Shown piece after piece: positions 44,498-62,974 of a stretch of DNA of 64,000 bases. Below the pieces are notes generated by a model. That model made no database searches. It saw nothing but the letters and a program-made list of their open reading frames with translations, and had not been told where the DNA came from. The DNA is from Calditrichales bacterium (lineage in GTDB: Bacteria > Calditrichota > Calditrichia > Calditrichales > J004), in the NCBI GenBank assembly GCA_015493745.1, contig WGCN01000036.1:1-64000 (forward strand). The letters are read 5' to 3'. Position 1 is the stretch's first letter. Each line of letters opens with the position of its first letter. A program made the position numbers and the translations under genes.

Positions 44498-45592
44498 ATG
44501 AAGATTATTAATGTGGTGGGCGCCCGTCCGAATTTTATGAAAATTGCACCGATTCAACGCGTTATGGATGCCACGGAAGGTATCGAGCCCTTTCTGGTTC
44601 ATACCGGCCAGCATTATGATGAGCGCATGTCCAAGTTTTTCTTTGACGACCTGCAACTGCCGCAACCGGATGTTTATCTGAATATCGGCTCCGCCAGTCA
44701 TGCCGTGCAAACGGCTAAAATCATGATCGAGTTTGAACAGGTGCTTCTTAAGGAGAAACCGGATGCCGTACTGGTGGTGGGGGATGTTAACTCTACCGCC
44801 GCCTGCAGTATTGTCGCTTCCAAAATGGGTATAAAGATTATCCATGTGGAGGCGGGGCTGCGTTCCAATGACCGCCGCATGCCCGAGGAGATTAACCGGA
44901 TTCTGACCGATTCCATATCCGACCTGCTGTTCATCACCGAACAAAGCGGCCTTGACAACCTGAAACGGGAAGGCATTCCCGATGAGAAGGTGCATCTGGT
45001 GGGCAATGTGATGATCGACTCGCTGATTTTTTTCAAGGAAAAGGCGGCGCAATCAACCATGCTGGACGATTTGGGGCTGGAAAAACAGTCCTATGCCTTA
45101 ATCACGCTTCACCGTCCCAGTAACGTGGATGATCCGGATGTCTTCCGGCGGCTGATTTCTACCTTTCAAAAGATCGAAAAAGAGCTTAAATTGATTTTTC
45201 CGATACACCCGCGCAGCCGCAAGCGGATATCCGAGTTTGGCCTGGACGAGATGATCGCTTCCATGCCTAATTTGAAACTGCTCGATCCGCTGGGGTATCT
45301 GGATTTTATGAACCTGATGCATAACGCGCGCGTATTACTGACCGATTCCGGCGGCATACAGGAGGAGACCACCTATCTGGGGATTCCCTGCATCACCATG
45401 CGTGAAAACACCGAACGGCCGGTAACCATGGAGGTGGGTACCAATGTGCTGGTGGGCAGCGATACGGATATGATCTACGAAGAATTTAAAAAGGTGATTA
45501 ACGGCCGGGCCAAAAAGGGCAGCATTCCGCCGATGTGGGACGGCCACGCCGCGGAACGGATTGTGGATATTATAAAGAAGGAATTGATGTGA
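44498..45592 (+). CDS. wecB: UDP-N-acetylglucosamine 2-epimerase (non-hydrolysing)
   Basis: VVGARPNFMKIAPI, FLVHTGQHYDERMSKFFFDDL, VEAGLRSNDRRMPEEINRILTDSIS, LLTDSGGIQEE. Confidence 0.95.
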   Translation: MKIINVVGARPNFMKIAPIQRVMDATEGIEPFLVHTGQHYDERMSKFFFDDLQLPQPDVYLNIGSASHAVQTAKIMIEFEQVLLKEKPDAVLVVGDVNSTAACSIVASKMGIKIIHVEAGLRSNDRRMPEEINRILTDSISDLLFITEQSGLDNLKREGIPDEKVHLVGNVMIDSLIFFKEKAAQSTMLDDLGLEKQSYALITLHRPSNVDDPDVFRRLISTFQKIEKELKLIFPIHPRSRKRISEFGLDEMIASMPNLKLLDPLGYLDFMNLMHNARVLLTDSGGIQEETTYLGIPCITMRENTERPVTMEVGTNVLVGSDTDMIYEEFKKVINGRAKKGSIPPMWDGHAAERIVDIIKKELM

Positions 45593-46839
45593 TTAGGTTA
45601 CTTCTATTAGTCCTTATTTTTTCCTCCTTTCTCTGGGGGCAAACACAATCTATTTTATACATACCTTCTGCATCTGAACAGGGGCAAAAGAAAACCAATG
45701 CCCTGGACTTGATGTACCAAAAGCGTTCTTTAATTGACAATATACCGGTAACACAGGTACTGGAGGCTGAGTTAGAAAGCTCAAATTATAGGGTTGGCCC
45801 GGGAGATACCTTTAAATTTATATTCTTTGACCAGACAGGAACAAGTTTTAAATTCACCATATCACCGGAAGGTAATGTAATGATACCTACGGTGGGGGCC
45901 TTCCACCTTTCCGGGATGACTTTACAAAAGGCCAAGGAAACTTTAAATAAAGAAGTAGCTAAATTTTATGATCGTGAGCAGTTTGCTATTAACCTGGATC
46001 AATTAAGAAAATTTCGTGTCTATTTAACCGGTGAGGTAAGAGCCCCGGGTACATATTTTGTTCAAGGTTCTGATCGTCTGGCAGATGTTTTGGAGGCATC
46101 CATAATTCAATCCTTGTCATCCAAAGAGGCATCTTCCAGTTTAACTGATTGGGCTGATAATTCAAGAATTGAGATACGTCATAAAGACTCAACGGTAAGT
46201 ATTATAGATATATCATCCTTTTATAAAGAAGGAAAAGAAGAGCAAAATCCGTATCTGCAAGGCGGGGATATTATCTTTGTCCCTTCAATTGACCTTTCAA
46301 AGGACTATGTTGTTATTGAGGGTAATATTGGTTTTCAGGGATTGTATGCCCTGAAAAAGAATGAAACCCTTTTTGCTTTTTTAACACGTGTTTCGGCCTT
46401 AAGTAAAAAGTCTAACCTTCAAAACATAGTGCTTGTCCGGGATGGTAGGAGGCAGGTGCTTGATGTTTTAAATCAGGAAGATATTCGAAACTCTTTCCTT
46501 TTACAGAAGGGTGATAAAATTATCATACCAACGATATACGAAAATGTATATGTCAGAGGTGAGGTGAGAAGGCCGGGCGCATTCCCGTACAAAGCAAATT
46601 ATACGGCAAAGGATTATATCGGTGAGGCTGGGGCAATGGACTCTGCGGATGATATGGAATCCATTATTGTCCTGCGGCAGGGTGGCGATGAAATTGCATT
46701 AGGACCTGATATTATTATTCATAAAGGGGATACGATAATTTTACCGCGTCGTGCCCGTGAAGTGTTTAAAGATTATATCCGCATTTTACTGCCGATTCTA
46801 AGTTTAGGGATTTCTGTTTATTCCATAGTGACCCGGTAG
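45589..46839 (+). CDS. SLBB-domain polysaccharide export protein (Wza-like)
   Basis: YRVGPGDTFKFIFF, GNVMIPTVGAFHLSGMTLQKAKETL, VYVRGEVRRPGAFPYKANYTAKDYIGEAG; GTG at 45589 in a GTGA overlap with wecB. Confidence 0.9.
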   Translation: MIRLLLLVLIFSSFLWGQTQSILYIPSASEQGQKKTNALDLMYQKRSLIDNIPVTQVLEAELESSNYRVGPGDTFKFIFFDQTGTSFKFTISPEGNVMIPTVGAFHLSGMTLQKAKETLNKEVAKFYDREQFAINLDQLRKFRVYLTGEVRAPGTYFVQGSDRLADVLEASIIQSLSSKEASSSLTDWADNSRIEIRHKDSTVSIIDISSFYKEGKEEQNPYLQGGDIIFVPSIDLSKDYVVIEGNIGFQGLYALKKNETLFAFLTRVSALSKKSNLQNIVLVRDGRRQVLDVLNQEDIRNSFLLQKGDKIIIPTIYENVYVRGEVRRPGAFPYKANYTAKDYIGEAGAMDSADDMESIIVLRQGGDEIALGPDIIIHKGDTIILPRRAREVFKDYIRILLPILSLGISVYSIVTR

Positions 46840-46873
46840 TCTGTAATTTTCATTTCAACACTGAGATTTTAAT

Positions 46874-48118
46874 ATGACAAACGATCGTCAAGAGAAGGTT
46901 GATGAGCTAAGTATTCTTGATCTGCTTAGTACTTTGATTAAACACAGAAAACTTATCATTACCTGGATAGTATCAGTTACCTTATTCATGGTAGTATTCA
47001 GTCTGATTATGCCTGAAACCTATAAAGCCCGTGCCGTACTTTTACCATCTTCATCTGAAACCAGTTTTTTTGACGGAATAACCCAATCTCTGGGAATTGA
47101 AGGAGTGGGGGACCTGTTAGGCGCTGGTGGAAGTGACCAGTCCTATCGTTTAAAATCCATTCTTGAAAGCCGGACTATGGCTGAAAAGGCTATTGCAAAG
47201 TTTAATCTCCAAGAGCGTTATGGGGAGTTTTTACTTGATGATGCTATTAATGTTTTTGCCGGGCGCATAGACGTTTCGATCAATGAGGACGGGACAATGA
47301 GCATTGTTGCCAGTGCCAAAACGAAGTACTTTTCTTTTGGATCGGAAAGTCGGGAAACGAGTAAGCTCTCTGCGGATATTGCTAACTTTCTTGTAGATCA
47401 GTTAGATTTTTTGAACAAAGAGTTGAAATTGCAGAAGGCCCGCAATGAAAAGAAGTTTATTCAGGGAAGATTTGATAAAACAAAACATGATCTCGATAGT
47501 GTTTCCCTAAAACTTAAAGATTTTAGTGAAAAACATGGACTAATATCTCTGCCAGATCAAGTAAAAGCACTGGTAGAGATATCGGCGCAACTGGATGCAC
47601 AGATTTTAATTAAAGATGTAGAATTAACAACCCTGAAGAGTCAGCTAAATAATAAACACCCCATGGTTCTTCAACTGGAAAATGAAATAGAGAAATTGCG
47701 AAGAAAACTGAATGAGTTAAAAGGTGATGTAAACTCTACAGACATGGGTACACTTCTTCCTGGTTTTAAGGCCGTTCCTTCTCTTGCCATGCAGTTTTTT
47801 AATCTTAAGCGTGATGTTGAGGTACAAGGATTATTATATAAATTTTTAGTACAGCAATTAGAGCAAACAAAACTGCAGGAAGCACGCAATACACCAACTA
47901 TTCAGGTATTGGATTATGCGCGTGTCCCTCAAAGACGTACCAGCCCCTGGCGTACTCTGATGGTATTGATTGCCGTTTTTGTGGGTGGCATATTTGGGGT
48001 AAGCCATGCTCTTCTCAGAAATAAAATACAGTTTTTGCAGGATTCGGGAGATAAGAGTTATCTAAACCTGAAAAATACACTTGCATCTATGAAGACTGGT
48101 TTTTTCAAAAAAAAATGA
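46874..48118 (+). CDS. Wzz/GNVR-family polysaccharide chain-length/co-polymerase protein
   Basis: N-terminal TM (LIITWIVSVTLFMVVFSLIMPETYKARAVLLPSS), coiled coil, C-terminal VPQRRTSPWRTLMVLIAVFVGG. Confidence 0.88.
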   Translation: MTNDRQEKVDELSILDLLSTLIKHRKLIITWIVSVTLFMVVFSLIMPETYKARAVLLPSSSETSFFDGITQSLGIEGVGDLLGAGGSDQSYRLKSILESRTMAEKAIAKFNLQERYGEFLLDDAINVFAGRIDVSINEDGTMSIVASAKTKYFSFGSESRETSKLSADIANFLVDQLDFLNKELKLQKARNEKKFIQGRFDKTKHDLDSVSLKLKDFSEKHGLISLPDQVKALVEISAQLDAQILIKDVELTTLKSQLNNKHPMVLQLENEIEKLRRKLNELKGDVNSTDMGTLLPGFKAVPSLAMQFFNLKRDVEVQGLLYKFLVQQLEQTKLQEARNTPTIQVLDYARVPQRRTSPWRTLMVLIAVFVGGIFGVSHALLRNKIQFLQDSGDKSYLNLKNTLASMKTGFFKKK

Positions 48119-48224
48119 ATAAGTAAATATCAAAATTTTTAAGAGAAAACTTTTCAATGAACGATAGCAATTTCCTTTCGGCCATTGTTATATACAAACA
48201 AATAGCTTAAAAGTTATCTGAACA

Positions 48225-49736
48225 ATGACTCTTGCTCACAAAGCTTTATCCAAACTTTCCATCCAGGCTGTTTCTCTTTCGATACAGGCTATTTTTCAAA
48301 TTATTACATTAACTGTTTATGCCAGATACATAAAACCGGAGGCCTTTGGTGTTTTCGCTATTGCCGGCTTAGTCCAAAACTTTGCGGAAATGTTTTCCAG
48401 TACAGGCATTTCTTCTGCCCTGGTTCAACGAAAAAAAATTACCGGTGGACATATTTCGTCGGCACTTTATAGTGTCAGTCTGCTTAGTATTTTTTTCTAC
48501 CTTCTTATCTATTCCTTTTCCGGGTCTATATCCGAGTTTTATCAAAGCAAAGAGTTAGAGAGTGTTCTGAAAATGGCTTCACTCTCATTGATTATTCTTA
48601 GTATAAGCAGTGTACCCCGGTCTATATTGCAAAGGTCACTTCGTTTTAAGGAAATGATGATCTCGGATATTATACCTTATTTTATAGGTTATATCCTGTT
48701 AGGGATTTATTTGGCAATGAATGGATTTGGTGTTTGGACACTCGTTTATGCTATTTTACTAACTTCAACTTTAAAAATGTTTTTTCTGTTTTATTTTGCC
48801 CGTATAAAAATTTCATTTAAACGATTAGTTGTTTCGGCAAAAGAATTGGTATCTTACAGTGGCGGTATTACCTTGCTGAACTTGACAAATTCCCTTGCGC
48901 AATATATGGATAAAATCATTATCGGGCGGTTGCTCACAATGGAGCTGTTGGGTTTATATGAACGTATTTCTCATATTGTACTATTAATGAGTAAATATTT
49001 GGGGAATACATTTGACTCCGTTTTATTTCCGCTTCTTTCGGGCATACAGGATGAAAAAAAGCGTGTACAGTCTGCATTTCTTAAAGCCTCTGAAGCACTA
49101 AATGTTTTAATCCTGCCATTAACTGTTTTTATGATATTCTATAGCAGAGATATTTTACTTCTTGTTTTAGGTGAAGCATGGCTGCCTGCGAATATGGCTT
49201 TTAAAATACTGCTACTATTACCGGTTATTCGTTTAATTACCCGATTGTCGGATTCACTTGTCCGTTCACTTGGTGCTGTATATAAAAGTGTTTTTAGAAA
49301 AACAGGGTTCTTGTTGACAATTGTGATCAGTTTATTTCTTGGAGCCAGGTATGGCCTAACTGGTACTGCCTTTGGAGTATTGGTTGCCGTTATTGTTCAT
49401 TATCTTTTGATGCTTACACTTTCTTTATCCCTAATAGATATTTCATTTGTACGCTTTATAAGGATCTATGTGCATGGTATAGTTTTGGGAGCAATAGCAA
49501 CTATCTTGTCGCTTATATCGTTTGGGGTAATTCAAATGATGGAAAGCTGGGATCACAAATATAATCTCTTTGTTTTGTTTCTTGACATTGTTTTATATCT
49601 CATTATTATCTACAATTTCCCAAGGTTGTTAGGGGAGAATGTGATAAAGATTCTATATACTTTATTATTAAAAGTACCCCTTAAAGGGTCTGCTTATAAT
49701 AAGCTGAAAAAACGTTTAGAATTAACAGAAATATAA
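48225..49736 (+). CDS. Oligosaccharide flippase (Wzx/MOP superfamily)
   Basis: Polytopic; YIKPEAFGVFAIAGLVQNFAEMFSSTGISSALVQRKKITGGHISSALYSVSL. Confidence 0.9.
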   Translation: MTLAHKALSKLSIQAVSLSIQAIFQIITLTVYARYIKPEAFGVFAIAGLVQNFAEMFSSTGISSALVQRKKITGGHISSALYSVSLLSIFFYLLIYSFSGSISEFYQSKELESVLKMASLSLIILSISSVPRSILQRSLRFKEMMISDIIPYFIGYILLGIYLAMNGFGVWTLVYAILLTSTLKMFFLFYFARIKISFKRLVVSAKELVSYSGGITLLNLTNSLAQYMDKIIIGRLLTMELLGLYERISHIVLLMSKYLGNTFDSVLFPLLSGIQDEKKRVQSAFLKASEALNVLILPLTVFMIFYSRDILLLVLGEAWLPANMAFKILLLLPVIRLITRLSDSLVRSLGAVYKSVFRKTGFLLTIVISLFLGARYGLTGTAFGVLVAVIVHYLLMLTLSLSLIDISFVRFIRIYVHGIVLGAIATILSLISFGVIQMMESWDHKYNLFVLFLDIVLYLIIIYNFPRLLGENVIKILYTLLLKVPLKGSAYNKLKKRLELTEI

Positions 49737-49740
49737 TATT

Positions 49741-50721
49741 ATGCCGGTATTATTTCTTGGGGACTTTTTTGTATCTCAACCAATAAAATGTGAAATCCCG
49801 TTAGACACATTTATTTTAAACCTGGAAGCACCAATTACCGGCAAGGGCCAACCGGCAAAAAATAAAATCAATTTGTGTTTTAATTCCGATTTTGATTTTA
49901 TAAAGTTTATCGGTAGAAATCCCCTGGCTGTGAACCTGGCCAATAATCATATTCTTGATTTCGGAACCGAAGGCCTGCTTGAAACAATACGCTTTCTTGA
50001 GGAAAAGAAGATTCATTTTTTTGGAGCAGGTAAGGAAAAAGATAATTATAACAACCCTTACCTGTTTAAATACAAAAACAATACTATTGCCATGTTAGGT
50101 TATGTTAGCTCCGAAACAAATCCAATTTCCGGAGACCCGAAAATTGCTGACTGTGCTCTCTTTTCAGGTGAAAGAGTGAAAAATGACATCCAAAGCTGTC
50201 GCGGTCGTGCGGATATTATTGTGGTTAATCTGCATTGGGGAGACGAAGAGATACCCTTTCCCAGACCAGATGCAGTATCCGTGGCACATAAAATTGTGGA
50301 TTGGGGAGGACATTTGGTGGTTGGACATCACGCACATGTAATTCAAAGTGTTGAACACTATAAAAACGGACATATTTATTATGGACTCGGGAATTTTGCT
50401 TTTAGTGATCTGGATGTACCCTATATGTTTGATGGGGTAAGGTATAATGGGCGTTATATAAAAAAATTAGACAAGTCTAATAAATACTCCATTGTCGTTG
50501 CGTTAGAGTATGATGGTGGTATTACCCATGCAACAACTTATTTTAATGGAGAATCCGTTGTTTTTAAAAAGAAACCTATTCCGTCCTGGATACCTGAGAC
50601 CTTTTTACTTTATAACTTTGCAAAATGGTTCCAACTACGCAAACGGATGCTGTACCGCTTTTTAAAATCACCTAAGAGAATAAATAGGTCTCATGTTAAA
50701 TATTTTATCCGGGGAAAGTAA
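49741..50721 (+). CDS. CapA-family metallophosphatase-like protein
   Basis: FLGDFFV, NLEAPITGKG, AVNLANNHILDFGTEGLLETIRFLEEKKIHFFGAG, VVNLHWGDE, VVGHHAHVIQSVE, IYYGLGNFAFSD. Confidence 0.9.
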   Translation: MPVLFLGDFFVSQPIKCEIPLDTFILNLEAPITGKGQPAKNKINLCFNSDFDFIKFIGRNPLAVNLANNHILDFGTEGLLETIRFLEEKKIHFFGAGKEKDNYNNPYLFKYKNNTIAMLGYVSSETNPISGDPKIADCALFSGERVKNDIQSCRGRADIIVVNLHWGDEEIPFPRPDAVSVAHKIVDWGGHLVVGHHAHVIQSVEHYKNGHIYYGLGNFAFSDLDVPYMFDGVRYNGRYIKKLDKSNKYSIVVALEYDGGITHATTYFNGESVVFKKKPIPSWIPETFLLYNFAKWFQLRKRMLYRFLKSPKRINRSHVKYFIRGK

Positions 50722-52079
50722 TGGACGGCCTCCAAAAAGCCTTGAACTATCTGTTTACAGACAGGAAGAAAGCACGTTTTCAGATTTACCGTCGTCTGTT
50801 AGAAGATCAATTTGCGGAACCTCGAAAGCAGGAGACAATGCTAAAGGAGAATATTCGCACATTGCTGGATCATAGTTTTAGTCATGTGCCCTATTATAAA
50901 AAAATAATTAAAAATATGGATGTTAAAGCCACAGAATGGCAAACAGACCCTATTCGTTTTTTAAAGAACTTTCCAATTTTATCCCGACAGCAAATACATA
51001 ATAACCGGAACGAGTTGCTATCCACAGACTATCAAAAGCGCAATCCATATCCAAATGCCTCCGGCGGTTCCAGTGGTATGCCGGTTCACATTATTCAGGA
51101 TGAATTTTTTTTTGAAAATGGGATCGCCCATCAACTTCTTGCAAATCATTGGCATGGAATGGATCCTTTTGACAGTATCGTTAAAATATGGGGAGCTGAA
51201 AAGGAGACATACAGCGGACGTAAACCTTTACTTTCATTTATCAAGGATTTCCTTAGAAATCGGTACGTGCTAAATAGTTTTGACTTGTCTCCATCACGGA
51301 TGTATGAGATAATTAGGATTTTAAATAAAAAAAAACCAAAACTTATTTTAGCATATGTGGATTCAATTTATCAAATCGCCCGCTTTGCACGGGAAAAAAA
51401 TATTAGGGTTAAACCACAACAAGCCATTCACTGCGGTGCCGGAACCCTGTATGATTTTATGCGGAAGGAAATAGAGACAGTATTTCAGTGTCCGGTTTAT
51501 AATCATTATGGTACAAGAGAAATGAGTTCAATTGCCTCTGAATGCAGGGAAAAACATGGTTTGCATTTGTTTGTTCAAAATGTTTATACAGAGATAGTTG
51601 ATTCTAAAGGGAATCCTTGCCCGCCAGGCAAAGAAGGGCGGATTCTGGTAACGGGGTTAAATAATTTTTCCATGCCGCTTATTCGTTATGAGATAGGAGA
51701 TATTGGTGTTTTGGAAAACAGTGGAACATGCTCCTGTGGCTGTACCTATCCTAAAATACGAAAGGTAATCGGTCGAAGTACAGAGTTAATCAAAGCTGCA
51801 GATGGTAAAATTATAATACCAGAGTTTTTTATCCATTTAATTGGTGTAAGCTGCAATGATGGCAGTATTCATTCGTTTCAGGTTATTCAAAAAGATTTGA
51901 ATATAATAGAGGTGAAAATTGTAAAACATGAACCTTTTAAAGATTCGATTTTGAATAAAATAAAGTCAAAAATTAAAATTGTAATGGGGTCAGAATGTAA
52001 AGTGATTTTCAATTTTGTTGAAAATATTCCCAAAACCCCAACAGGTAAATACAAATACGTTATAAATGAAATGGTCTGA
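50721..52079 (+). CDS. PaaK/CapK-like AMP-dependent ligase family protein
   Basis: ASGGSSGMPVHIIQ, NHYGTREMSSIASEC, GRILVTGLNNFSMPLIRYEIGDIG, KVIGRSTELIKAADGKII. Confidence 0.88.
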   Translation: MDGLQKALNYLFTDRKKARFQIYRRLLEDQFAEPRKQETMLKENIRTLLDHSFSHVPYYKKIIKNMDVKATEWQTDPIRFLKNFPILSRQQIHNNRNELLSTDYQKRNPYPNASGGSSGMPVHIIQDEFFFENGIAHQLLANHWHGMDPFDSIVKIWGAEKETYSGRKPLLSFIKDFLRNRYVLNSFDLSPSRMYEIIRILNKKKPKLILAYVDSIYQIARFAREKNIRVKPQQAIHCGAGTLYDFMRKEIETVFQCPVYNHYGTREMSSIASECREKHGLHLFVQNVYTEIVDSKGNPCPPGKEGRILVTGLNNFSMPLIRYEIGDIGVLENSGTCSCGCTYPKIRKVIGRSTELIKAADGKIIIPEFFIHLIGVSCNDGSIHSFQVIQKDLNIIEVKIVKHEPFKDSILNKIKSKIKIVMGSECKVIFNFVENIPKTPTGKYKYVINEMV

Positions 52080-52080
52080 T

Positions 52081-53169
52081 ATGACAATGAAACGTATTGT
52101 TTTTTTTATAAATTCTTTAAAAACCGGGGGGGCTGAAAGGGTTTGTGTGACTTTAGCAAACAATTTTGTGGAAAAAGGTATACATGTTGTAATTATTGTA
52201 TTACACTTAAAAGATTCTATCCTTAAGTCTGAGTTAGATCCGAGGGTTGGAGTTATCGATCTTAAATCTGACCATGCCAGATATGCCATATTTCGATTGT
52301 ATAGATGGATTTGGAAGCTTAATCCCTCAAAAATTATTTCCTTTAGCTCTCAATTAACGGCGCTATTGGTTTTAGTTCGTTGGATTAGCCGCAATTCCTT
52401 TAAGATAATTTCACGAAATGTAACCAATCTTTCAAAGGCAAGAGGGCTACAAAAAAGTGTATGGCATAAAAATATAGTCTTTTTTTTCTTAATGAGAACA
52501 TACGCATATGTGGATAAATATATTGCGCAAACAGAAAAGATGAAGATGGATATGGTGAGAACGTTTTCGTTAAACCCGCAAAAAATAGTTGTGATACATA
52601 ACCCCGTAAATCCTAATTTACTGAAGCAATATGGAAGTAATGTGACTCGAAATAAGGAAATCTTATTTGTAGGAAGACTTTGTTCAGAAAAAGCTATTGA
52701 TGAACTGTTAAATATTTTTAAGGATTTTCATAAAGTTTTGCCTGAGTATAAGTTACGTATAGTGGGGGATGGGCCCTTGAAAGAAAGCTTACAGCAATTA
52801 GCGAGCACGCTGGGTTTTGAAGATGCTGTTATTTGGGAAGGGGCTCAAATAAAATTAGCCCCGTATTATCAACAGGCGAGGGTTGTGGTTTTGACTTCTA
52901 TTTACGAGGGGTTTCCCAACGTGCTTATCGAATCAGTCTCACTGGGCACTCCTGTTGTTGCCTACGATTGTATCAGCGGGCCATCGGAAATTATTATCGA
53001 TGGTCTGAATGGTTACCTTATTGAGAACCTAAATAAAAAAATGTTTAAGGAAAAACTTCTACAAGCTGTAAATGATAATTGGAATTATGAACTCGTAAAA
53101 GAAAGCGCCAAGGAGTTCTCTGCGGATAAGATCGCTACGGTTTATTTGAAAGAAATACAGAATGCATAA
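52081..53169 (+). CDS. Glycosyltransferase family 4
   Basis: FINSLKTGGAERVCVTLANNF, LFVGRLCSEKAIDELL, TSIYEGFPNVLIESVSLGTPVVAYDCISGPSEII. Confidence 0.92.
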   Translation: MTMKRIVFFINSLKTGGAERVCVTLANNFVEKGIHVVIIVLHLKDSILKSELDPRVGVIDLKSDHARYAIFRLYRWIWKLNPSKIISFSSQLTALLVLVRWISRNSFKIISRNVTNLSKARGLQKSVWHKNIVFFFLMRTYAYVDKYIAQTEKMKMDMVRTFSLNPQKIVVIHNPVNPNLLKQYGSNVTRNKEILFVGRLCSEKAIDELLNIFKDFHKVLPEYKLRIVGDGPLKESLQQLASTLGFEDAVIWEGAQIKLAPYYQQARVVVLTSIYEGFPNVLIESVSLGTPVVAYDCISGPSEIIIDGLNGYLIENLNKKMFKEKLLQAVNDNWNYELVKESAKEFSADKIATVYLKEIQNA

Positions 53170-54436
53170 TGAAAAGTTAAGTTTAACAGATATTTTGTCA
53201 CTGAATATCATCTCTGTGATAATTCCTGTTTCTCTCATATTATTTACATTTGGCACCGATACGAGTTTATTTTATATAAACTGGGTTGTTGGTGTTTTGG
53301 TTTTGGGCTCGGTAACCATAAGCATATTATTTATAAAGCTTAAGATTAATAAAACCAGCCTAAAGGTATTTATATTTATGAATATGTGGTTGATTTATGC
53401 TATTATTATTACACCTGTGGCTAAGAATCTCTCTTATCATATATCTTTCATTTTGTTAACAATTTTTTACAATGGATTAGGATTATACTTTATAAATAAA
53501 ATAATCGAATCTCCTCAGAGATTTGCATTAACTATTGTCGGACTTAATATATTGTGGGTGTTTATAAATACCTTTGCCATGATATTTTTTTTCCTTACTT
53601 CCGTAAATCAGGCAGATCAATCTTTTTCCGGTATTTTCGCCAATAGGAATCAGTTTGCTGTAGTTACTACTCTTCTGTTTACCTTTACGTTGTTTTATAA
53701 AAAGTATTTTCGGAGCAGCATTCCTGTTAATATTTTAATGATTATTAATATCATCATGATTTTTACCAGCTTATCGAGGAAAGGATTCATTGGAATAATA
53801 CTGATCCTGTTTTTATATAATTGGCAACGATTAAAAAGGGTTAAGAAGCTAATGGCAATCTTTGCCATTTCTATTCTGATAATTGTTACATTTATAACAG
53901 ACAATCCTCTGAAAGAAAGGTTTAAGCTCGTAAAGGAAAAAACACCCGCCTTTACTTCGGAAAGGGTTGAGTTAAGTGCTTTTGAACGTATGTGGTTGTT
54001 GATTAATGGGACAAAGTTGTTCCTTGAACATCCATTGACAGGGGTAGGTGTTAATAACTCTCTGGTTTACCTAGAAACGCCTATGCAAAAATTAGAGCGG
54101 GCCCAGGGAGACAAAATGGACAAAGAGGGCAAATATACTCATATCAATTATCTGGAAATGTTGGTAAATGCAGGCATTCCAGCCTTTATATTATACTATG
54201 TCCCAATTTTACTTATTTTTGGACGTGTTATTTCAAGAACTAAAGAATCCGATAGATACAGTATGATAGCTATCCTGCTTATTTATAAGTTATTTTTAGA
54301 TATGGCGATGGTAAGCTATTATGATTTTGCACACTCATTACTGCTGGCCTATGTGTTTTTAGCTTATTTAAAAGCGAAGCCTAATAGTGAAAATATACCC
54401 CGTCTAAATTCAACAGGTGTCCTTGCCGGTGAATAA
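53162..54436 (+). CDS. O-antigen ligase/polymerase-like membrane protein (Wzy-type)
   Basis: Polytopic; FSGIFANRNQFAVVTTLLF, SLSRKGFIGIILILF, HPLTGVGVNNSLVYLE, YTHINYLEMLVNAGIPAFILYY. Confidence 0.85.
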   Translation: MHNEKLSLTDILSLNIISVIIPVSLILFTFGTDTSLFYINWVVGVLVLGSVTISILFIKLKINKTSLKVFIFMNMWLIYAIIITPVAKNLSYHISFILLTIFYNGLGLYFINKIIESPQRFALTIVGLNILWVFINTFAMIFFFLTSVNQADQSFSGIFANRNQFAVVTTLLFTFTLFYKKYFRSSIPVNILMIINIIMIFTSLSRKGFIGIILILFLYNWQRLKRVKKLMAIFAISILIIVTFITDNPLKERFKLVKEKTPAFTSERVELSAFERMWLLINGTKLFLEHPLTGVGVNNSLVYLETPMQKLERAQGDKMDKEGKYTHINYLEMLVNAGIPAFILYYVPILLIFGRVISRTKESDRYSMIAILLIYKLFLDMAMVSYYDFAHSLLLAYVFLAYLKAKPNSENIPRLNSTGVLAGE

Positions 54437-55529
54437 AATAAAAATACTTCATTTCTTCTCTTCCTGGGAAAAGGGGGGTGCTGAAATATGGTTGCTTAGA
54501 TTTCTGGAAAAATTTATTAAAGACAATCGTTTTGAAAACCATGTCGGTGCTTTATATGCCAAGGGTGTCCTGAAGGATAAATTTAAAGCATTGGGCCTGC
54601 CTGTAATTAATCTAAATATGAAATATCTTTTCGACCCGAAAGGAATCAGTGATTTAAAGAGGTTATTAAGAACGGAACAATATGATATAATACATACACA
54701 CCTGTTAAAAACAGATTTAGTATTTCAATACGCGACCCTTAATGGAGGGGCTAAGCTTGTAACAACCAAGCATAATAATTTCTATAAAGCTGGATTTTTA
54801 AATTCGATTATCGAGAATAAAATAAACAGGAATTTTGATTATATTTTTTGTGTAAGCCGTGATGTGTATCAGGCTGTAACTCAGGCCATACGCGTTCCGG
54901 AAGAGAAAATAGGCATAGCTTATCCGATTCCTGTATCTAAGGAATCCATTCCGGTAAAGCGGTTAACTAAAGATAAGACCAGCCTGATTATAGGAACTTT
55001 GGGAAGGCTTCATCCGGTTAAAGGTTTAAAATATCTATTAGAAGCCTGGCCTCTTGTGCTAAAGAAGGCTCCACAGGCAAAGCTGTTAATTGCCGGGCCG
55101 GATAGCTATAATTATAAAAAGGTGTTGTTAAAAAAAATACAAGATAAATATATAACCGAAAGCATCAGTTGGTTGGGGGAAATTGAGGATATCCCGGCAT
55201 ATTTCTCTAAAATTGATATCTTTTGCACTCCTTCCATATCCGAAGGCTTTCCTCTTAGTGTTATCGAGGCCATGAGTGCCGGAAAACCGGTCATTGCTTC
55301 TGAAACTGGAGGCATTCCCGAGCAGGTTATACATATGCAAAACGGACTATTATTTAAAGTTGGTGATATAAATGCCATTGCAGATGCTGTTTTGTATTTT
55401 GCCAATAATCTATATAAAATAGAAGAGATGGGAAAAAAATCCATTGAGCGGGTAGTCGAAAATTTTAATATTGAAAATAGTATTGAAAAAATAAAACAAG
55501 TTTACTTGAATCTTTGCCCCGGGGAATAA
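54417..55529 (+). CDS. Glycosyltransferase family 4
   Basis: KILHFFSSWEKGGAEIWLLRFL, GTLGRLHPVKGLKYLLEAW, TPSISEGFPLSVIEAMSAGKPVIASETGGIPEQVI. Confidence 0.92.
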   Translation: MSLPVNKIKILHFFSSWEKGGAEIWLLRFLEKFIKDNRFENHVGALYAKGVLKDKFKALGLPVINLNMKYLFDPKGISDLKRLLRTEQYDIIHTHLLKTDLVFQYATLNGGAKLVTTKHNNFYKAGFLNSIIENKINRNFDYIFCVSRDVYQAVTQAIRVPEEKIGIAYPIPVSKESIPVKRLTKDKTSLIIGTLGRLHPVKGLKYLLEAWPLVLKKAPQAKLLIAGPDSYNYKKVLLKKIQDKYITESISWLGEIEDIPAYFSKIDIFCTPSISEGFPLSVIEAMSAGKPVIASETGGIPEQVIHMQNGLLFKVGDINAIADAVLYFANNLYKIEEMGKKSIERVVENFNIENSIEKIKQVYLNLCPGE

Positions 55530-55533
55530 GACT

Positions 55534-56703
55534 CTGAAAAACATAAAAATAATCCGCATTCAATCGCGCATTGTTATTGGCGGCCCCTCTTTGCAAACTA
55601 TTCTGCTTAGTAAATACTTTAACAATGATCATTATACTAGTTTATTGGTTGGTGGCGGTGAGGATACCGATGAAAAAAGTATGCGTCTGATTTTGGAAAG
55701 GGAGCAGATACCCTATCTGATACTTCCTGATATGGGAAGGGATGTGTCTCCATTTTCTGATATAGTGTCCTTATGGAAAATCTACCGGCTGTTGCGCCGT
55801 GAAAAACCTGATATTGTTCATACGCACACTGCAAAGGCAGGAGCAATTGGCCGGATGGCTGCTTTTATGGCAGGTGTGCCTGTAATTATCCATACCTTTC
55901 ACGGGCATATTTTTCATTCATATTTTCCTAAGTGGAAAAGCCGCTTGTTTTCTCAGGTAGAACGTTTCTTGTCAAAGCTATCCAATGCTATTATTGTAAT
56001 CAGCAAAAGGCAGTATAATGATATTGTCAACATTTTTAAGATTGCACCTGCACAAAAAGTATATACCATTCCATTAGGTTTTGACTGGGATGCATTTGAT
56101 AAAGAAGAAGCAGAAATAGATATCAGGAAAAAGTATAATATCCCGGAAAATAAAAAAATCATTACCATTATTGGTCGTCTCGTACCGATAAAAAATGTTT
56201 CAGCTTATATTAGGATTGTTCGTAAGATCGAAGAATTGGCCCCGGACTCTTTTCATTTCCTGATTATTGGTGATGGTGAACTTCGTGGTGACTTAGAGTT
56301 GCTAGCCCGTCAGGAAGGAATAAGTGATCATCTTACATTTACGGGTTGGTTGCATCTTTCAGCATCAGTCTACCATCAGCTTGATCTGGTTATGTTAACC
56401 TCGCTCAATGAAGGCACACCGGTAACGTTAATTGAGGCTCTCGCTTGCGGTATTCCTTGCCTGGCTACAGATGTAGGTGGTGTTGGTGATATTTTTGAAC
56501 TTTACAATAGTAAGAGTTTTATTGATCTCAACGCGCCCGGGCAGGTAGCGAAGCACGTTATTGATATATTAAAAACCGGAGAAAAACCCGATAGTGTAAA
56601 ACAATCCCGGATTCGATCTTTTTATTCAGCCAAAAGATTGGTGGTGGATATTGAAAACCTCTATCTGAAACTATTGAGTCATAATAATCAGCGGGGGAGA
56701 TAG
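55534..56703 (+). CDS. Glycosyltransferase family 4 (apparent CTG start)
   Basis: Frame open upstream of the TTG at 55591 encodes (L)KNIKIIRIQSRIVIGGPSLQTILLSKYF; GGGGAA at 55521-55526 precedes CTG at 55534. C-terminal TSLNEGTPVTLIEALACGIPCLATDVGGVGDIF. Confidence 0.85.
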   Translation: MKNIKIIRIQSRIVIGGPSLQTILLSKYFNNDHYTSLLVGGGEDTDEKSMRLILEREQIPYLILPDMGRDVSPFSDIVSLWKIYRLLRREKPDIVHTHTAKAGAIGRMAAFMAGVPVIIHTFHGHIFHSYFPKWKSRLFSQVERFLSKLSNAIIVISKRQYNDIVNIFKIAPAQKVYTIPLGFDWDAFDKEEAEIDIRKKYNIPENKKIITIIGRLVPIKNVSAYIRIVRKIEELAPDSFHFLIIGDGELRGDLELLARQEGISDHLTFTGWLHLSASVYHQLDLVMLTSLNEGTPVTLIEALACGIPCLATDVGGVGDIFELYNSKSFIDLNAPGQVAKHVIDILKTGEKPDSVKQSRIRSFYSAKRLVVDIENLYLKLLSHNNQRGR

Positions 56704-58419
56704 GTGCTTAGTTCGGTAAAAAAAATATTTCATCTAGTAATATTATTTACTTTTTTCCTATCAACATCATTCCTATTTGCTCAAAACCCGGCTTCCGTGG
56801 CGGTGCATCACCCCGTTTACGACTTTATCGACCGCATGGAAGCCCTGGACGTAACCGGTAACCTGTTAAGCGGCGCGCGGCCCCTCTCCCGGGGAAGGAT
56901 TGCCGCGATTCTCGGTGAGGTCGATAAAAAGCGCTCCATGCTTACAGCCATCGATCGCCGGAGGCTGGATGACTATCTGCTCGACTTCCGCTATGAAATC
57001 GACGCCCATAAAAAATATGATCTGATCCCCGAAGGCCAGACATGGTACAGCACATTGGCCTCCTGGGAGAACTTTAAAAAGGATGTGCGCCGCAATCTGA
57101 GTCAACCCTATCCCGAGGAGGAAAATCATCTCTTTATCTGGGAACAGGGCGACAGCAGCTTTTATATGGACTATCGTCAGCTTTTTAGCTATGACGGTCG
57201 CATCAATGGCCCCTCGCGCAACGCCAATGAGCAAACCTACCAATTCCGGGGCACGGTCGGTAACTTTTCCTTTCAATGGCAGCTCAGCACACAGGCCATT
57301 CGCGGCGCTGATCTGGAATACCGTCGGCAAGACCCCCTGCTTAAGGGCACCTTCAGTCAGGAAAGCGAAAGCGGGGCTACCACCTTTGCCGACCGTACCG
57401 GTGGTGAGCTGGCCTGGCATACACGGGCCTTCGACGTCTCCTTTGCTCAACAACCCCTGCGCTGGGGGGCGGGAGCCTCGGGGCAGTTGACTCTCTCCGA
57501 TTGGGCCGAACAGTATCCCTATATCAGTATTAATAAAAATTGGGGATGGGGGCGCTTTACCATGATCCACGGAAAGCTGCAATCCTTTCAACAGGGCGCC
57601 CTGGAAGACGGTACCCGTCTCTATCCCGATAAGTGGCTGGCCGCCCACCGGCTGGAAATTAGTCCTTTCGGCAACTTCTCCTTTGCCCTGAACGAAATGT
57701 TTATCTATGGCAACCGCTATGCCGACTGGAGCTATCTTTTTCCTCTCAATTTCTACCGCGCCGTGCAACACAAACTGCGCGACCGGGACAATGCCACCAT
57801 TGCCCTGGACGCTAAATGGATAGTCCTGCCCGGTGTTAAACTATACGCAACCATTTTTCTGGATGAAATGAAGTTCGATAGCCTGGGCACCAACTGGTTC
57901 GGCAACAAGCAGGCCCTGCAAACGGGACTGGATTGGTATGACCCCCTGGGCTGGGCCAACAGCCGCTTCACCGCCGAATATGTGGCTATCATGCCCTGGG
58001 TTTATACCCATAGGTTTGCCGTTAATCGTTATGAGTCCGATGGACGCTCCCTGGGGTACTGGGCGGGGCCCAACAGTGAGGTGCTCTACTTTAAACTGGA
58101 AAACGAGCCCCATGCCCGTTTACGGCTGGGGGTAAGCTGGCGGCAGTTAAAAAAAGGGCACAACACGGAAAATGAAAATATAGGCGGCAATATCCTGCAG
58201 GGGCGCAGCCTGTTACTGGGCACGCAAACCGAGCCCCGGGAAAAGCGCTACTTTCTGGAAGGTGATCTGGAAATACGCCGCGAACTGACTTTGATGGCCC
58301 GGTATGAAATTTTCAACGATTTATATCTGTCCGCTTCGTATATTTTTACCCACGGGGAGCGGAAACAGATCAACGAAAACTATCAGTCCCTGCACTTCGG
58401 TTTCCTGTTTGATTACTGA
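56704..58419 (+). CDS. Outer-membrane beta-barrel, capsule-assembly Wzi-like protein
   Basis: Signal peptide; HHPVYDFIDRMEALDVTGNLLSGARPLSRGRIAAIL; aromatic-rich alternating strands; terminal LHFGFLFDY. Confidence 0.75.
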   Translation: MLSSVKKIFHLVILFTFFLSTSFLFAQNPASVAVHHPVYDFIDRMEALDVTGNLLSGARPLSRGRIAAILGEVDKKRSMLTAIDRRRLDDYLLDFRYEIDAHKKYDLIPEGQTWYSTLASWENFKKDVRRNLSQPYPEEENHLFIWEQGDSSFYMDYRQLFSYDGRINGPSRNANEQTYQFRGTVGNFSFQWQLSTQAIRGADLEYRRQDPLLKGTFSQESESGATTFADRTGGELAWHTRAFDVSFAQQPLRWGAGASGQLTLSDWAEQYPYISINKNWGWGRFTMIHGKLQSFQQGALEDGTRLYPDKWLAAHRLEISPFGNFSFALNEMFIYGNRYADWSYLFPLNFYRAVQHKLRDRDNATIALDAKWIVLPGVKLYATIFLDEMKFDSLGTNWFGNKQALQTGLDWYDPLGWANSRFTAEYVAIMPWVYTHRFAVNRYESDGRSLGYWAGPNSEVLYFKLENEPHARLRLGVSWRQLKKGHNTENENIGGNILQGRSLLLGTQTEPREKRYFLEGDLEIRRELTLMARYEIFNDLYLSASYIFTHGERKQINENYQSLHFGFLFDY

Positions 58420-58439: not shown

Positions 58440-60893
58440 TTGGAGCCATCTAACTACTATATCATCGCGCTTGTCTTTGCCGCGGGCACCCTCGTTTCGC
58501 TTGGGTTGACACGGCTGGTGCGGGCCTGGGCCATACAGCGCCGGATCGGTGTTTTCCCCAACGAACGCATGGTTCATACCGGTTTTATACCACGCATGGG
58601 CGGTATCGGCATCATCGGCGGCTTTTTGGTCGCGCTTATCCTGTCGGCTTTGCTGTTTCACAGTTATCTGCAATGGGAATGGCCGTATGTGCTGATTGTT
58701 AGCGGAGCCCTGCTGATGGGCGGGCTGGGCATCTATGACGACCGTTACGGACTGAATGCGCCGCAGAAATTTGCAGGTCAGTTTTTGGCCGCCACCCTGG
58801 TCATTCTGGGCGGCTGCCGCATAGATGTGCTGGTGAATCCCTTTGGTCTGGATCTGAATCTGGGTTGGTTCTCCATACCGCTGACCTATCTATGGCTAAT
58901 AACCGTTACCAACGCGGTTAATCTGCTGGACGGGCTGGATGGACTGGCCGCCGGCGTCAGTTTTATCGCCGCCCTGGTGTTTGGTTTGATCGCCTTTCTG
59001 CATAACAATATGATCATCGTTGTTTTTAGCGTAAGCCTGATGGCCGGTCTGTTGGGCTTTTTACGCTATAACCGTCATCCGGCTTCTATTTTTATGGGGG
59101 ATACCGGGTCGCTTTTCCTGGGTTTTCTGTTGGCCGCCCTTAGCCTTAAGGCCTTTACCACGGCCGGAAATCATATCGAGATGCTGTTGCCGGTTATTGT
59201 GCTGGCGGTGCCCATCGGCGATACCACCGTGGCTTTTTTCCGCCGCTTGAACAACGGACGGCACCCTTTTAAACCGGACAAGGATCATTTGCATCATCGC
59301 CTGCTTTACCTGGGGCTTACCCACCGGCAGGCCGTGCAGATCATCTACTTTGCCGCCGCCGCATACGGCCTGGCTGCGATAATACTGGTGCTGGAAGCGG
59401 AAATCAGCGGACTGATATTGCTGCTTCTGGTTATTGTCCTTTCCGTTTTCGGCTTAAAGCGCCTGGGCTATCTGGAGGCGCGCAAGTTCAAAACCGTTAC
59501 CGGCAGCGAGGATTTTTTACGCATCCAAAAGGAATTGGCGCCCATATCCATCAAGCGTTTTCTGCACCGGCTTCTGCTGGGTCTCAGCGATGTGCTAATG
59601 GTTAACCTGGCCTTGTACGTTTATGTCTGGTTACGTCATCACTATCATATCGGTCAGGGCGGCGTATTGGACCCGGGCGAGATCCTGACCCCCGTTCCCA
59701 TGCTGATCGTTACCCTCTACTGGATCGTGCTGTTTATTTTAAACGATCTGTACAGTATGCGCTGGGACATCTCCCGTTTTGACAAGATGCGCCGTATCAG
59801 CAAAACCATTCTTGTGGGTATTTTGCTTTGGTTTATCATCACCTGGGATGGCGCCCTGTCCATCTCCGAAGGACGCATGGCCATTCTGCTCTATGCCGGT
59901 CTGTTACTGCTTTTTGTCAATGCGGGGCGTCTGCTGGTGATCAGCGTGGAAAAGCGATGGCGCATTCTGGAATACGCGCCGCAAAACACCCTGTTGATCG
60001 GCGCCACATCCCGGGGGCACAAGCTGCTTAAGGATATCCGTAAAAATCCACACCTGCTCTATAATGTGGTGGGTTTTGTAACACAGGACGGCCGACCGGA
60101 GCGCTTCAGCAACCTGAGCTGCCTGGGTACCTATGAGGATATACCATCGCTCATCCGCAACCGGGGCATACATGAGGTGATCATCGCCATAAACGAGCAA
60201 ACCCACGATGAACTGATCGGTTTGATCGCCGCCATCGATGACATGAAGGTGGTGTTAAAGATTGTGCCGCAATATTACGATATTCTTTCCGGCCATAAAA
60301 CCGAGGAGATTACCGGCCATCCGCTGATACGCCTTTTTCCAGATCATATGCGTATGTGGCAATGGCTGCTTAAACGCCTGGCCGATATTGTCCTGTCCCT
60401 GTTTTTTCTCACGCTCTTTTTCCTGCCGGCCCTGCTTTTGGCCCTGTTGTTAACGCTTACCGGGGTTCATCCCCCGTTAGTTATCGAAAACCGTATGGGC
60501 AAGAACGGCCGGGTTTTCGGACAGCTTAACTTTAATGTGCAGGGGCGTTCCCCCTTGCAGCGCTGGTTGTACAAAACCAATATCTACAAACTGCCGGAAC
60601 TGATCAATATACTTCTGGGCTCCATGAGCTGGGTGGGGCCGCGTCCGGAAAGTCCGGACAAAGTGGAACGCCTGCGCAGCCGTATAAAATTCTATAACCG
60701 CCGTTTTCAGATACGGCCCGGGTTAACCGGCTGGGCGCAGGTGCGTTACCGTTACGATGATTCCATGCGTTCGCATCGGGATCAGCATAAACAGGATCTC
60801 TTTTATCTGGAAAATATGTCCCTTACATTTGATTTGCGTATTTTATTGCGTTCGCTGGTCATCTTCTTTTTTAAACGATCAAAAAGTAAATAG
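58440..60893 (+). CDS. Fusion: WecA/MraY-type polyprenyl-phosphate glycosylphosphotransferase + WbaP-like region ending in a degenerate Bac_transf domain
   Basis: PNPT motifs intact: VHTGFIPRMGGIGIIGGF, GIYDDRYGLNAPQKFAGQ, NAVNLLDGLDGLAAG, FMGDTGSLFLGF, DHLHHRL. C-terminal: LLIGATSRGHKLLKDI, NIYKLPELINILLGSMSWVGPRPES, IRPGLTGWAQVRY. Confidence 0.88.
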   Translation: MEPSNYYIIALVFAAGTLVSLGLTRLVRAWAIQRRIGVFPNERMVHTGFIPRMGGIGIIGGFLVALILSALLFHSYLQWEWPYVLIVSGALLMGGLGIYDDRYGLNAPQKFAGQFLAATLVILGGCRIDVLVNPFGLDLNLGWFSIPLTYLWLITVTNAVNLLDGLDGLAAGVSFIAALVFGLIAFLHNNMIIVVFSVSLMAGLLGFLRYNRHPASIFMGDTGSLFLGFLLAALSLKAFTTAGNHIEMLLPVIVLAVPIGDTTVAFFRRLNNGRHPFKPDKDHLHHRLLYLGLTHRQAVQIIYFAAAAYGLAAIILVLEAEISGLILLLLVIVLSVFGLKRLGYLEARKFKTVTGSEDFLRIQKELAPISIKRFLHRLLLGLSDVLMVNLALYVYVWLRHHYHIGQGGVLDPGEILTPVPMLIVTLYWIVLFILNDLYSMRWDISRFDKMRRISKTILVGILLWFIITWDGALSISEGRMAILLYAGLLLLFVNAGRLLVISVEKRWRILEYAPQNTLLIGATSRGHKLLKDIRKNPHLLYNVVGFVTQDGRPERFSNLSCLGTYEDIPSLIRNRGIHEVIIAINEQTHDELIGLIAAIDDMKVVLKIVPQYYDILSGHKTEEITGHPLIRLFPDHMRMWQWLLKRLADIVLSLFFLTLFFLPALLLALLLTLTGVHPPLVIENRMGKNGRVFGQLNFNVQGRSPLQRWLYKTNIYKLPELINILLGSMSWVGPRPESPDKVERLRSRIKFYNRRFQIRPGLTGWAQVRYRYDDSMRSHRDQHKQDLFYLENMSLTFDLRILLRSLVIFFFKRSKSK

Positions 60894-62974
60894 TGATGTT
60901 GCCTGAAATTTCAATAATTATCGTCAACTACAATGTCCGGGATTTTCTGGAACAGTGCCTGCTTTCCCTGAGGCGGGCCCTGGCTCATATCCCCTCCGAG
61001 ATCTGGGTGGTGGACAATAATTCCGTGGACGGCAGCGTGAACATGCTCCGGGAACGTTTCCCCGAAGTGCGGCTGATCGCCAGCAAAAGCAATCTGGGCT
61101 TTTCCGGCGGGAACAATCTGGCCCTGAAACAGGCGCGGGGACGTTTTATCGTGCTGCTCAACCCGGACACGGTGGTGCAGGAGGATACCTTTAGCAGCCT
61201 GCTGCGGTTTTTTGAGGAGCATCCCGATGCTTCCGCCGCCACCTGCAAAATTCTGAATCCCGACGGTAGTTTTGCCGTGGATTGCCGCCACAGCATTCCC
61301 ACACCCAGTACCGCCTTCTGGAAGCTGTTGGGGCTGAATCGCCTTTTTCCCAAAAGCAAAATCTTCGGACGCTATAACCTCACCTATCTGGATGAGAACG
61401 ACACCTATCCGGTGGAGGCCATTTCCGGCTCTTTTATGATGATCAAAAGGGAAGTGGTGGAACAGGTGGGGCTTTTGGATGAAACTTTTTTCATGTATTG
61501 CGAGGATATCGACTATTGCCACCGTATCAATCAGGCCGGCGGTAAAATCTACTATACCCCCCAAACACAGATTGTTCATTATAAAGGGGAAAGTTCCAAG
61601 GCCAATAACCTCGATTATGTAATCACCTTTAACCGGTCGCTTTATCAGTTCTATAAAAAACATTACCAGCAAAAATACATCTATCCCTTTAAATGGCTGA
61701 TCTTACTGGGGGTAATCCTGCGCGGCGCCTTTATTTACATGCGCAATGTACTGCGTAAATATTTTACGGTGCTTATGGATGTGGCCATGCTTAACCTGGT
61801 GCTGCTGTTTACCTTTTGGCTGCGTTTTGAGATGAAAGGCGGCTTTTCCTGGGACAGTTTCTTCAGTCAGTATATCATCATCCATCTGCTGACCACGGTA
61901 ACCTACCTGTTCAATGCCTTGCTGTTTGATATGATCAAGCAGGATCGTTTTTCGCCGGAAAAAGTGCTGAAGGTACTGGGGGCCACCTTTCTCTTTGTAT
62001 CGGCCCTGACTTTCTTTTTTAAGCAGTTCGCCTTTTCCCGTCTGGTGGTGGCCATGGCCGCCATCGGCGGATTTCTGGCCATTGTGGGTTGGCGTTTGCT
62101 GTTTAACCGCTACGGGGCCAAATATTCCGGTGCGCTGGAAAAAGAGTTCTTTCATAAACGGGCGCTGATCGTGGGCGATGACCAGGAGACCGTGGAACTA
62201 CTTAAAAAACTGGATCGCCAGCCCCTGGCCGGCATGAAGGTGGAAGGGGTGGCCGCCATAGACGATGACCGTATCGGGCATAAACTGGATGCCTATCCCA
62301 TTGTTACCTCGATCGGTCAAATCGATGAATACGCCCGTCTGAAGCGCGTTAATCTGATTATTTTTTCCACCCACAACATCGCCTATGAACGTATTCTGGA
62401 AACCATGACCCGTCTGCATGATTTAAACGTGGAGATAAAAATGGTGCCCGGACATCTGGAATATATGATCGGCAAGTCGAATATCGAGCGTTTTGAAAGC
62501 GTACCGCTGGTGGAGATTGATTATGCCTATAATAAGCCGTTTAACCGCTTTATCAAGCGGTTTATGGATATCGGGCTGACCCTGACTCCCGTACTGATCC
62601 TGACCGTGCCGGTACTGTTTGCCTTACCCTTTAACCGGCAAAAATATTTCCGCCGCCAGTTAGCGCCCAGGCTGGGCAAAAAATTCCATTTTCTCGATTA
62701 CCGGGAAAAGGGTCTGTTTCGTTCCTGGGCGCGTCTCTTTTCCGTGCTTTTGGGCAGAATATCCCTGGTAGGCGCCCCGATACAGGACGATCCGGTCGCC
62801 TCGCCCCTGTTTTACAAACCCGGACTGACCGGTATTGTCCAACTCTATCCCGAAAGGGTAGCGCGCCTGGGTAACAGCCATGAACTGGAACTGAGCTATT
62901 TAAAAAACCATTCGCTTTTTCTTGATATGGAACTGTTGTTGAAATCCCTGTTTCGAAAGGGACGCGGGGAATAA
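60893..62974 (+). CDS. Fusion: GT2 glycosyltransferase + WbaP-like region ending in a degenerate Bac_transf domain
   Basis: GT2: ISIIIVNYNVRDFLEQCLLSL, VVDNNSVDGS, NLGFSGGNNLALKQARGRFIVLLNPDT. C-terminal: ALIVGDDQETVELLKKL, RLFSVLLGRISLVGAPIQ, YKPGLTGIVQLYPE. Confidence 0.85.
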   Translation: MMLPEISIIIVNYNVRDFLEQCLLSLRRALAHIPSEIWVVDNNSVDGSVNMLRERFPEVRLIASKSNLGFSGGNNLALKQARGRFIVLLNPDTVVQEDTFSSLLRFFEEHPDASAATCKILNPDGSFAVDCRHSIPTPSTAFWKLLGLNRLFPKSKIFGRYNLTYLDENDTYPVEAISGSFMMIKREVVEQVGLLDETFFMYCEDIDYCHRINQAGGKIYYTPQTQIVHYKGESSKANNLDYVITFNRSLYQFYKKHYQQKYIYPFKWLILLGVILRGAFIYMRNVLRKYFTVLMDVAMLNLVLLFTFWLRFEMKGGFSWDSFFSQYIIIHLLTTVTYLFNALLFDMIKQDRFSPEKVLKVLGATFLFVSALTFFFKQFAFSRLVVAMAAIGGFLAIVGWRLLFNRYGAKYSGALEKEFFHKRALIVGDDQETVELLKKLDRQPLAGMKVEGVAAIDDDRIGHKLDAYPIVTSIGQIDEYARLKRVNLIIFSTHNIAYERILETMTRLHDLNVEIKMVPGHLEYMIGKSNIERFESVPLVEIDYAYNKPFNRFIKRFMDIGLTLTPVLILTVPVLFALPFNRQKYFRRQLAPRLGKKFHFLDYREKGLFRSWARLFSVLLGRISLVGAPIQDDPVASPLFYKPGLTGIVQLYPERVARLGNSHELELSYLKNHSLFLDMELLLKSLFRKGRGE

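Follow-up and report, generated by a model that had tools for sequence, protein, structure and literature searches.

The two superfamilies of phosphoglycosyltransferases (PGTs) catalyse the same reaction although they are unrelated, and the joining of both in a single protein raises the question of why a cell would keep the pair, particularly where one partner has lost its catalytic residues. Such a gene is found at positions 58440–60893 of the forward strand in the window, i.e. the whole 64,000 nt stretch of contig WGCN01000036.1 from a Calditrichales bacterium that was analysed. The gene has a TTG start and a TAG stop and encodes 817 amino acids. Its first part, a PNPT half of the WecA type (58440–59489; residues 1–350), is followed by the TM region of a large PGT (59565–59954; approximately residues 376–505), whose boundaries are approximate and are drawn from a TIGR03025 match that begins at residue 383 and from helices in the structure model. 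A CoA_binding_3 match (PF13727) lies at 59745–60269 (residues 436–610; 53.8 bits, E 3e-14), and the second half of this match corresponds to the DUF that large PGTs have in the cytoplasm. The last part is a PHPT domain (PF02397, Bac_transf) at 60372–60866 (residues 645–809). By profile search the large-PGT layout is therefore complete in the fusion protein, with TM bundle, CoA_binding_3/DUF and PF02397. A preliminary description of the sequence had placed two initiating PGT classes in one polypeptide, and the HMM scan bears this out: PF00953 scores 143.7 bits (residues 85–237, E 6e-42) and PF02397 118.9 bits, both against a cut-off of 27.

The PNPT half has the sequence features expected of an intact enzyme of its class. 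The motifs GIYDD, NAVNLLDGLDGLA, IFMGDTGSL and KDHLHHRL are unbroken, and the DD, NAxNxxDGxDGL and HxHH motifs are unbroken in all 30 aligned Calditrichota loci, in keeping with the earlier claim that the N-terminal half has all the WecA/MraY-type motifs. The predicted structure of this half resembles MraY (Foldseek TMt 0.7–0.8). The sole other PF00953 protein of the source genome is MraY itself (TIGR00445, 399 bits), and the fusion protein is therefore the only WecA-type PNPT detected there; it should be pointed out that the genome is 94% complete, and thus a second WecA could be absent from the assembly. Judged by its motifs, the PNPT head is probably active as a UDP-HexNAc : Und-P transferase.

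The PHPT half presents a different picture. In phmmer alignments with PglC of C. concisus (8g1n) and with WbaP (8t53), the residues Tyr716-Lys717 (60585–60590, codons TAC AAA) align with the catalytic Asp-Glu dyad of LDELPQLFNVL, and the substitution sits inside an otherwise recognisable motif, NIYKLPELINILLGSMSWVGPRP. The sequence GQLNFNVQ (60519–60542) replaces the TIYKFRSM-type segment. GPRP and RPGxTG are retained, and so, it appears, is the re-entrant helix. These results uphold the preliminary description, which had reported the Tyr-Lys pair, the replaced segment and a well kept IRPGLTGWAQV region downstream. A canonical standalone large PGT is encoded on another contig of the source genome (C54, IDELPQLMNILKGDMSF).

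Is the loss peculiar to this sequence? The fusion is present in 37 of 41 Calditrichota genomes, and in all 24 that are of good quality (>=90% complete, <=5% contaminated). Thirty loci of the phylum were aligned and 25 distinct sequences tabulated, and at the dyad position these read YK in 24 and NR in one. Not one has DE, as opposed to 52/52 standalone large PGTs from Calditrichota and other phyla. One might suspect a sequencing error, a chimeric assembly or decay that is recent and local, as most of the sequences come from metagenome-assembled genomes, but an identical architecture and a lost dyad in 25 distinct orthologues, together with low dN/dS values, leave such an explanation with practically no chance of being correct. 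Sequencing error and local decay are both rejected, given that orthologues with a substituted dyad are found across the phylum.

Other parts of the active site have been lost with the dyad. The KFRSM Lys is present in at most one of the 25 Calditrichota fusions vs 52/52 standalone large PGTs, and the window protein reads LNFNV. The loop from KFRSM to the dyad, canonically ~35 residues, has 17–22 residues in 16 of the 25 fusions, and the conserved D-x-R-I-T of this stretch is gone. On the other hand, 23/25 orthologues have the DX12P of the re-entrant helix in register; in the window protein (D649, P663) the Pro is shifted by one residue towards the C-terminus. A different phosphosugar chemistry supported by Tyr-Lys, e.g. 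with a tyrosine nucleophile, would account for the near invariance of YK (24/25) and for the kept Arg of GPRP. However, the KFRSM Lys and D-x-R-I-T are lost too, as is a large part of the loop preceding the dyad in most members, and a living C-terminal half is thus very improbable. A substitute conserved acidic pair within the dyad motif was not seen in the orthologues, and the structure model is too poor to be read at the active site. The models have pLDDT values of 63.6 for the fusion protein (12-row alignment) and 59.9 for the neighbouring GT2 protein (11-row alignment), with most of the dead domain of each below 60. A counterpart of the swap hairpin of WbaP was sought in the dead module, but no clear match was established. 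Calditrichota also have another family of ~660–700 aa proteins with a partial PF02397 match (positions 34–178; G006:C1:4023214-4023672, G011:C36, G016:C219 and others).

Purifying selection on the dead domain is strong in spite of its catalytic degeneracy, and matches that on the PNPT half: between the window sequence and its nearest relatives dN/dS is 0.06–0.17 for the dead domain and 0.08–0.12 for the PNPT half. A retained function of the dead module is favoured by the low dN/dS, by the near invariance of YK and by the preservation of GPRP, RPGxTG and, in most members, DX12P. The earlier proposal of a pseudo-PHPT module kept on an intact PNPT is in accord with these data, in that the dyad is lost phylum-wide and the remaining fold is conserved under purifying selection.

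Relatives in other phyla provide insight into the origin of the fusion. Full or near-full PNPT-PHPT fusions are present in two of nine genomes of one other phylum and, in a second phylum, in 17 of the 100 genomes sampled. Those tabulated have DE in 18/18 and keep KFRSM, and the PNPT motifs are intact in most. Orthologues with DE, the finding that would have pointed to local decay or error, are thus confined to genomes outside Calditrichota, and their presence there indicates that the dyad was still intact in the ancestral fusion. In some of these proteins (L100–L102 and L115–L126, from two other phyla) both active sites are intact by sequence, and they are apparently two-headed initiating enzymes. 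Four others (L127–L130) are the mirror image of the Calditrichota proteins: the PHPT half is intact and the PNPT half is degenerate, with DD, NAxN and HxHH lost and a PF00953 score that, at 23–25 bits in the three members scanned, falls short of the 27-bit cut-off. The checked genomes of other phyla mostly have two further PF00953 proteins each. Several other groups contain ~600 aa proteins (L096, L105, L107–L112) that match the PNPT half and the CoA_binding_3 region and have no PHPT match.

In trees of the large-PGT half, all fusions fall on one side of a branch, with support of 99 in the first tree and 99/98 in a more careful one, and the Calditrichota fusions are likewise set apart (100/99). 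A quick tree of the PNPT half places the full fusion set on one side of a branch with 96 SH-aLRT, and a one-clade test on the fusions minus the pseudo-PNPT rows gives p-AU 0.099. The simplest account is that the fusion arose once and that either head was lost later; the PHPT head would have been lost in Calditrichota and the PNPT head in the L127–L130 lineage, both from one two-headed ancestor. The fusion may also have passed between phyla by transfer.

The gene that follows has a similar construction. It is found at 60893–62974 on the same strand, has a GTG start that overlaps the preceding stop by 1 base, and encodes a 693 aa protein. This begins with a GT2 domain with an NPDT motif (60911–61468; residues 7–192; PF00535, 88.8 bits), continues with a CoA_binding_3 domain (61976–62449; PF13727, 66.5 bits) and ends with a second, more degenerate PHPT domain (62732–62950; residues 614–686; PF02397, 34.8 bits). 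In this PHPT domain DE is found in 0/24 orthologues, the GPRP Arg is lost and the loop before the dyad position is nearly absent. The gene adjoins the fusion in 34 of the 37 genomes, and the remaining three are contig edges. One Calditrichota metagenome-assembled genome has two such pairs (G017:C17; L005, L034), one of them ~99–100% identical to that of the window and possibly on a contaminating contig. Two genomes (G041 and G047) have a GT2-type homologue without any PHPT domain.

Outside Calditrichota, 21 GT2-type homologues were read and all are without DE. Of 34 genomes searched in one other phylum, 33 have such a homologue, some with and some without the PNPT-PHPT fusion, and in G093 the fusion and the GT2-type gene are on separate contigs; the pairing is therefore not obligatory everywhere. 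The GT2 protein is possibly a rhamnosyltransferase, as RmlD is encoded near GT2-type homologues in four other genomes and the protein has a weak TIGR01556 match.

The genomic setting is that of polysaccharide synthesis. Pfam searches reveal, on the forward strand at 44498–58419, genes for a UDP-GlcNAc 2-epimerase (44498), Wza-like (45535), Wzz (46874) and Wzx-like (48225) proteins, three GT1s (52066, 54417 and 55591), and Wzy-like (53162) and Wzi-like (56704) proteins. The fusion gene closes this Wzx/Wzy-type locus, and no further PGT was found within it. The locus also has, at 49741–52079, genes for a PGA_cap capsule-synthesis-like protein and an AMP-binding (adenylation) protein.

The fusion protein would thus be expected to start an EPS or capsule repeat unit. 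The N-terminal WecA-type head would move HexNAc-1-phosphate onto undecaprenyl phosphate, and the C-terminal half, a complete but dead large monotopic PGT inherited from a two-headed ancestor, might serve as a membrane, oligomerisation or regulatory platform, which is close to the scaffold or regulatory role suggested previously. As a whole, this reading of a PNPT initiator with a retained dead module is considered probable.

How the platform might work is less certain. Large PGTs are dimeric through the DUF (PMC10942596; also PMC12802240), and the dead module may dimerise in the same way as WbaP. WbaP forms a homodimer by swapping its DUF and is inhibited by UMP; in isolation, its DUF gains stability from UMP, UDP and UTP (PMC10942596). 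By analogy, the module could be a self-contained regulator that brings about a DUF-mediated PNPT homodimer with nucleotide (UMP) feedback, the neighbour having no special role. That no other part of the window protein is as well conserved in its closest relatives as the DUF (98% identity) agrees with such a regulator, but the idea leaves the dead module on the next gene, present in 34/37 genomes, without explanation, and seems rather unlikely. Perhaps the dead modules of the two proteins pair instead, with Und-PP-HexNAc passing directly to the GT2; this is put forward tentatively, though with less hesitation than the self-contained regulator. Somewhat more speculative is the broader proposal that the dead large-PGT modules of the PNPT initiator and of the GT2 are a matched pair which, in Calditrichota, links the first step of repeat-unit synthesis to the second, and that they derive from a two-headed PGT with reciprocal head loss between phyla.

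Loss of a different head in each lineage represents a natural experiment on the non-catalytic roles of large-PGT accessory domains, and makes it possible to test whether the re-entrant-helix part and the DUF serve as platforms for dimerisation, regulation or hand-over. A literature search of partial coverage found no description of polytopic-monotopic fusions or of pseudoenzyme PGTs, and the Calditrichota proteins offer a pseudoenzyme case for the superfamily.

Compared with known systems, the N-terminal half of the fusion protein resembles WecA, a polytopic PGT (PNPT, PF00953), in that every recognised motif is present and the predicted fold is like that of MraY. Unlike WecA, the protein bears a 450-residue monotopic PGT module; against the WecA model TIGR02380 it scores 135.9 bits, under the cut-off of 326. 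With WbaP/WcaJ-type large monotopic PGTs (PF13727 + PF02397, TIGR03025) the module shares RPGxTG, GPRP and the same order of TM bundle, DUF and re-entrant-helix domain, but has lost the Asp-Glu dyad and KFRSM as well as some of the active-site loop, and the TIGR03025 score of 244.6 bits is under the cut-off of 295.55. The fusions of two other phyla (L100–L102, L115–L131) have the same domain order and form one clade with the Calditrichota fusions in trees; they differ in that the dyad is intact, with the PNPT half degenerate instead in L127–L130. Also comparable are the bifunctional monoPGTs (Bi-PGTs), described in PMC10942596 (citing O'Toole et al. 2021), in which a monoPGT catalytic domain is fused to another functional domain. 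The likeness is in the joining of a monoPGT domain to a second function, but the Calditrichota protein stands apart, in that the monoPGT domain is joined to a PGT from the other superfamily and is itself the inactive part.
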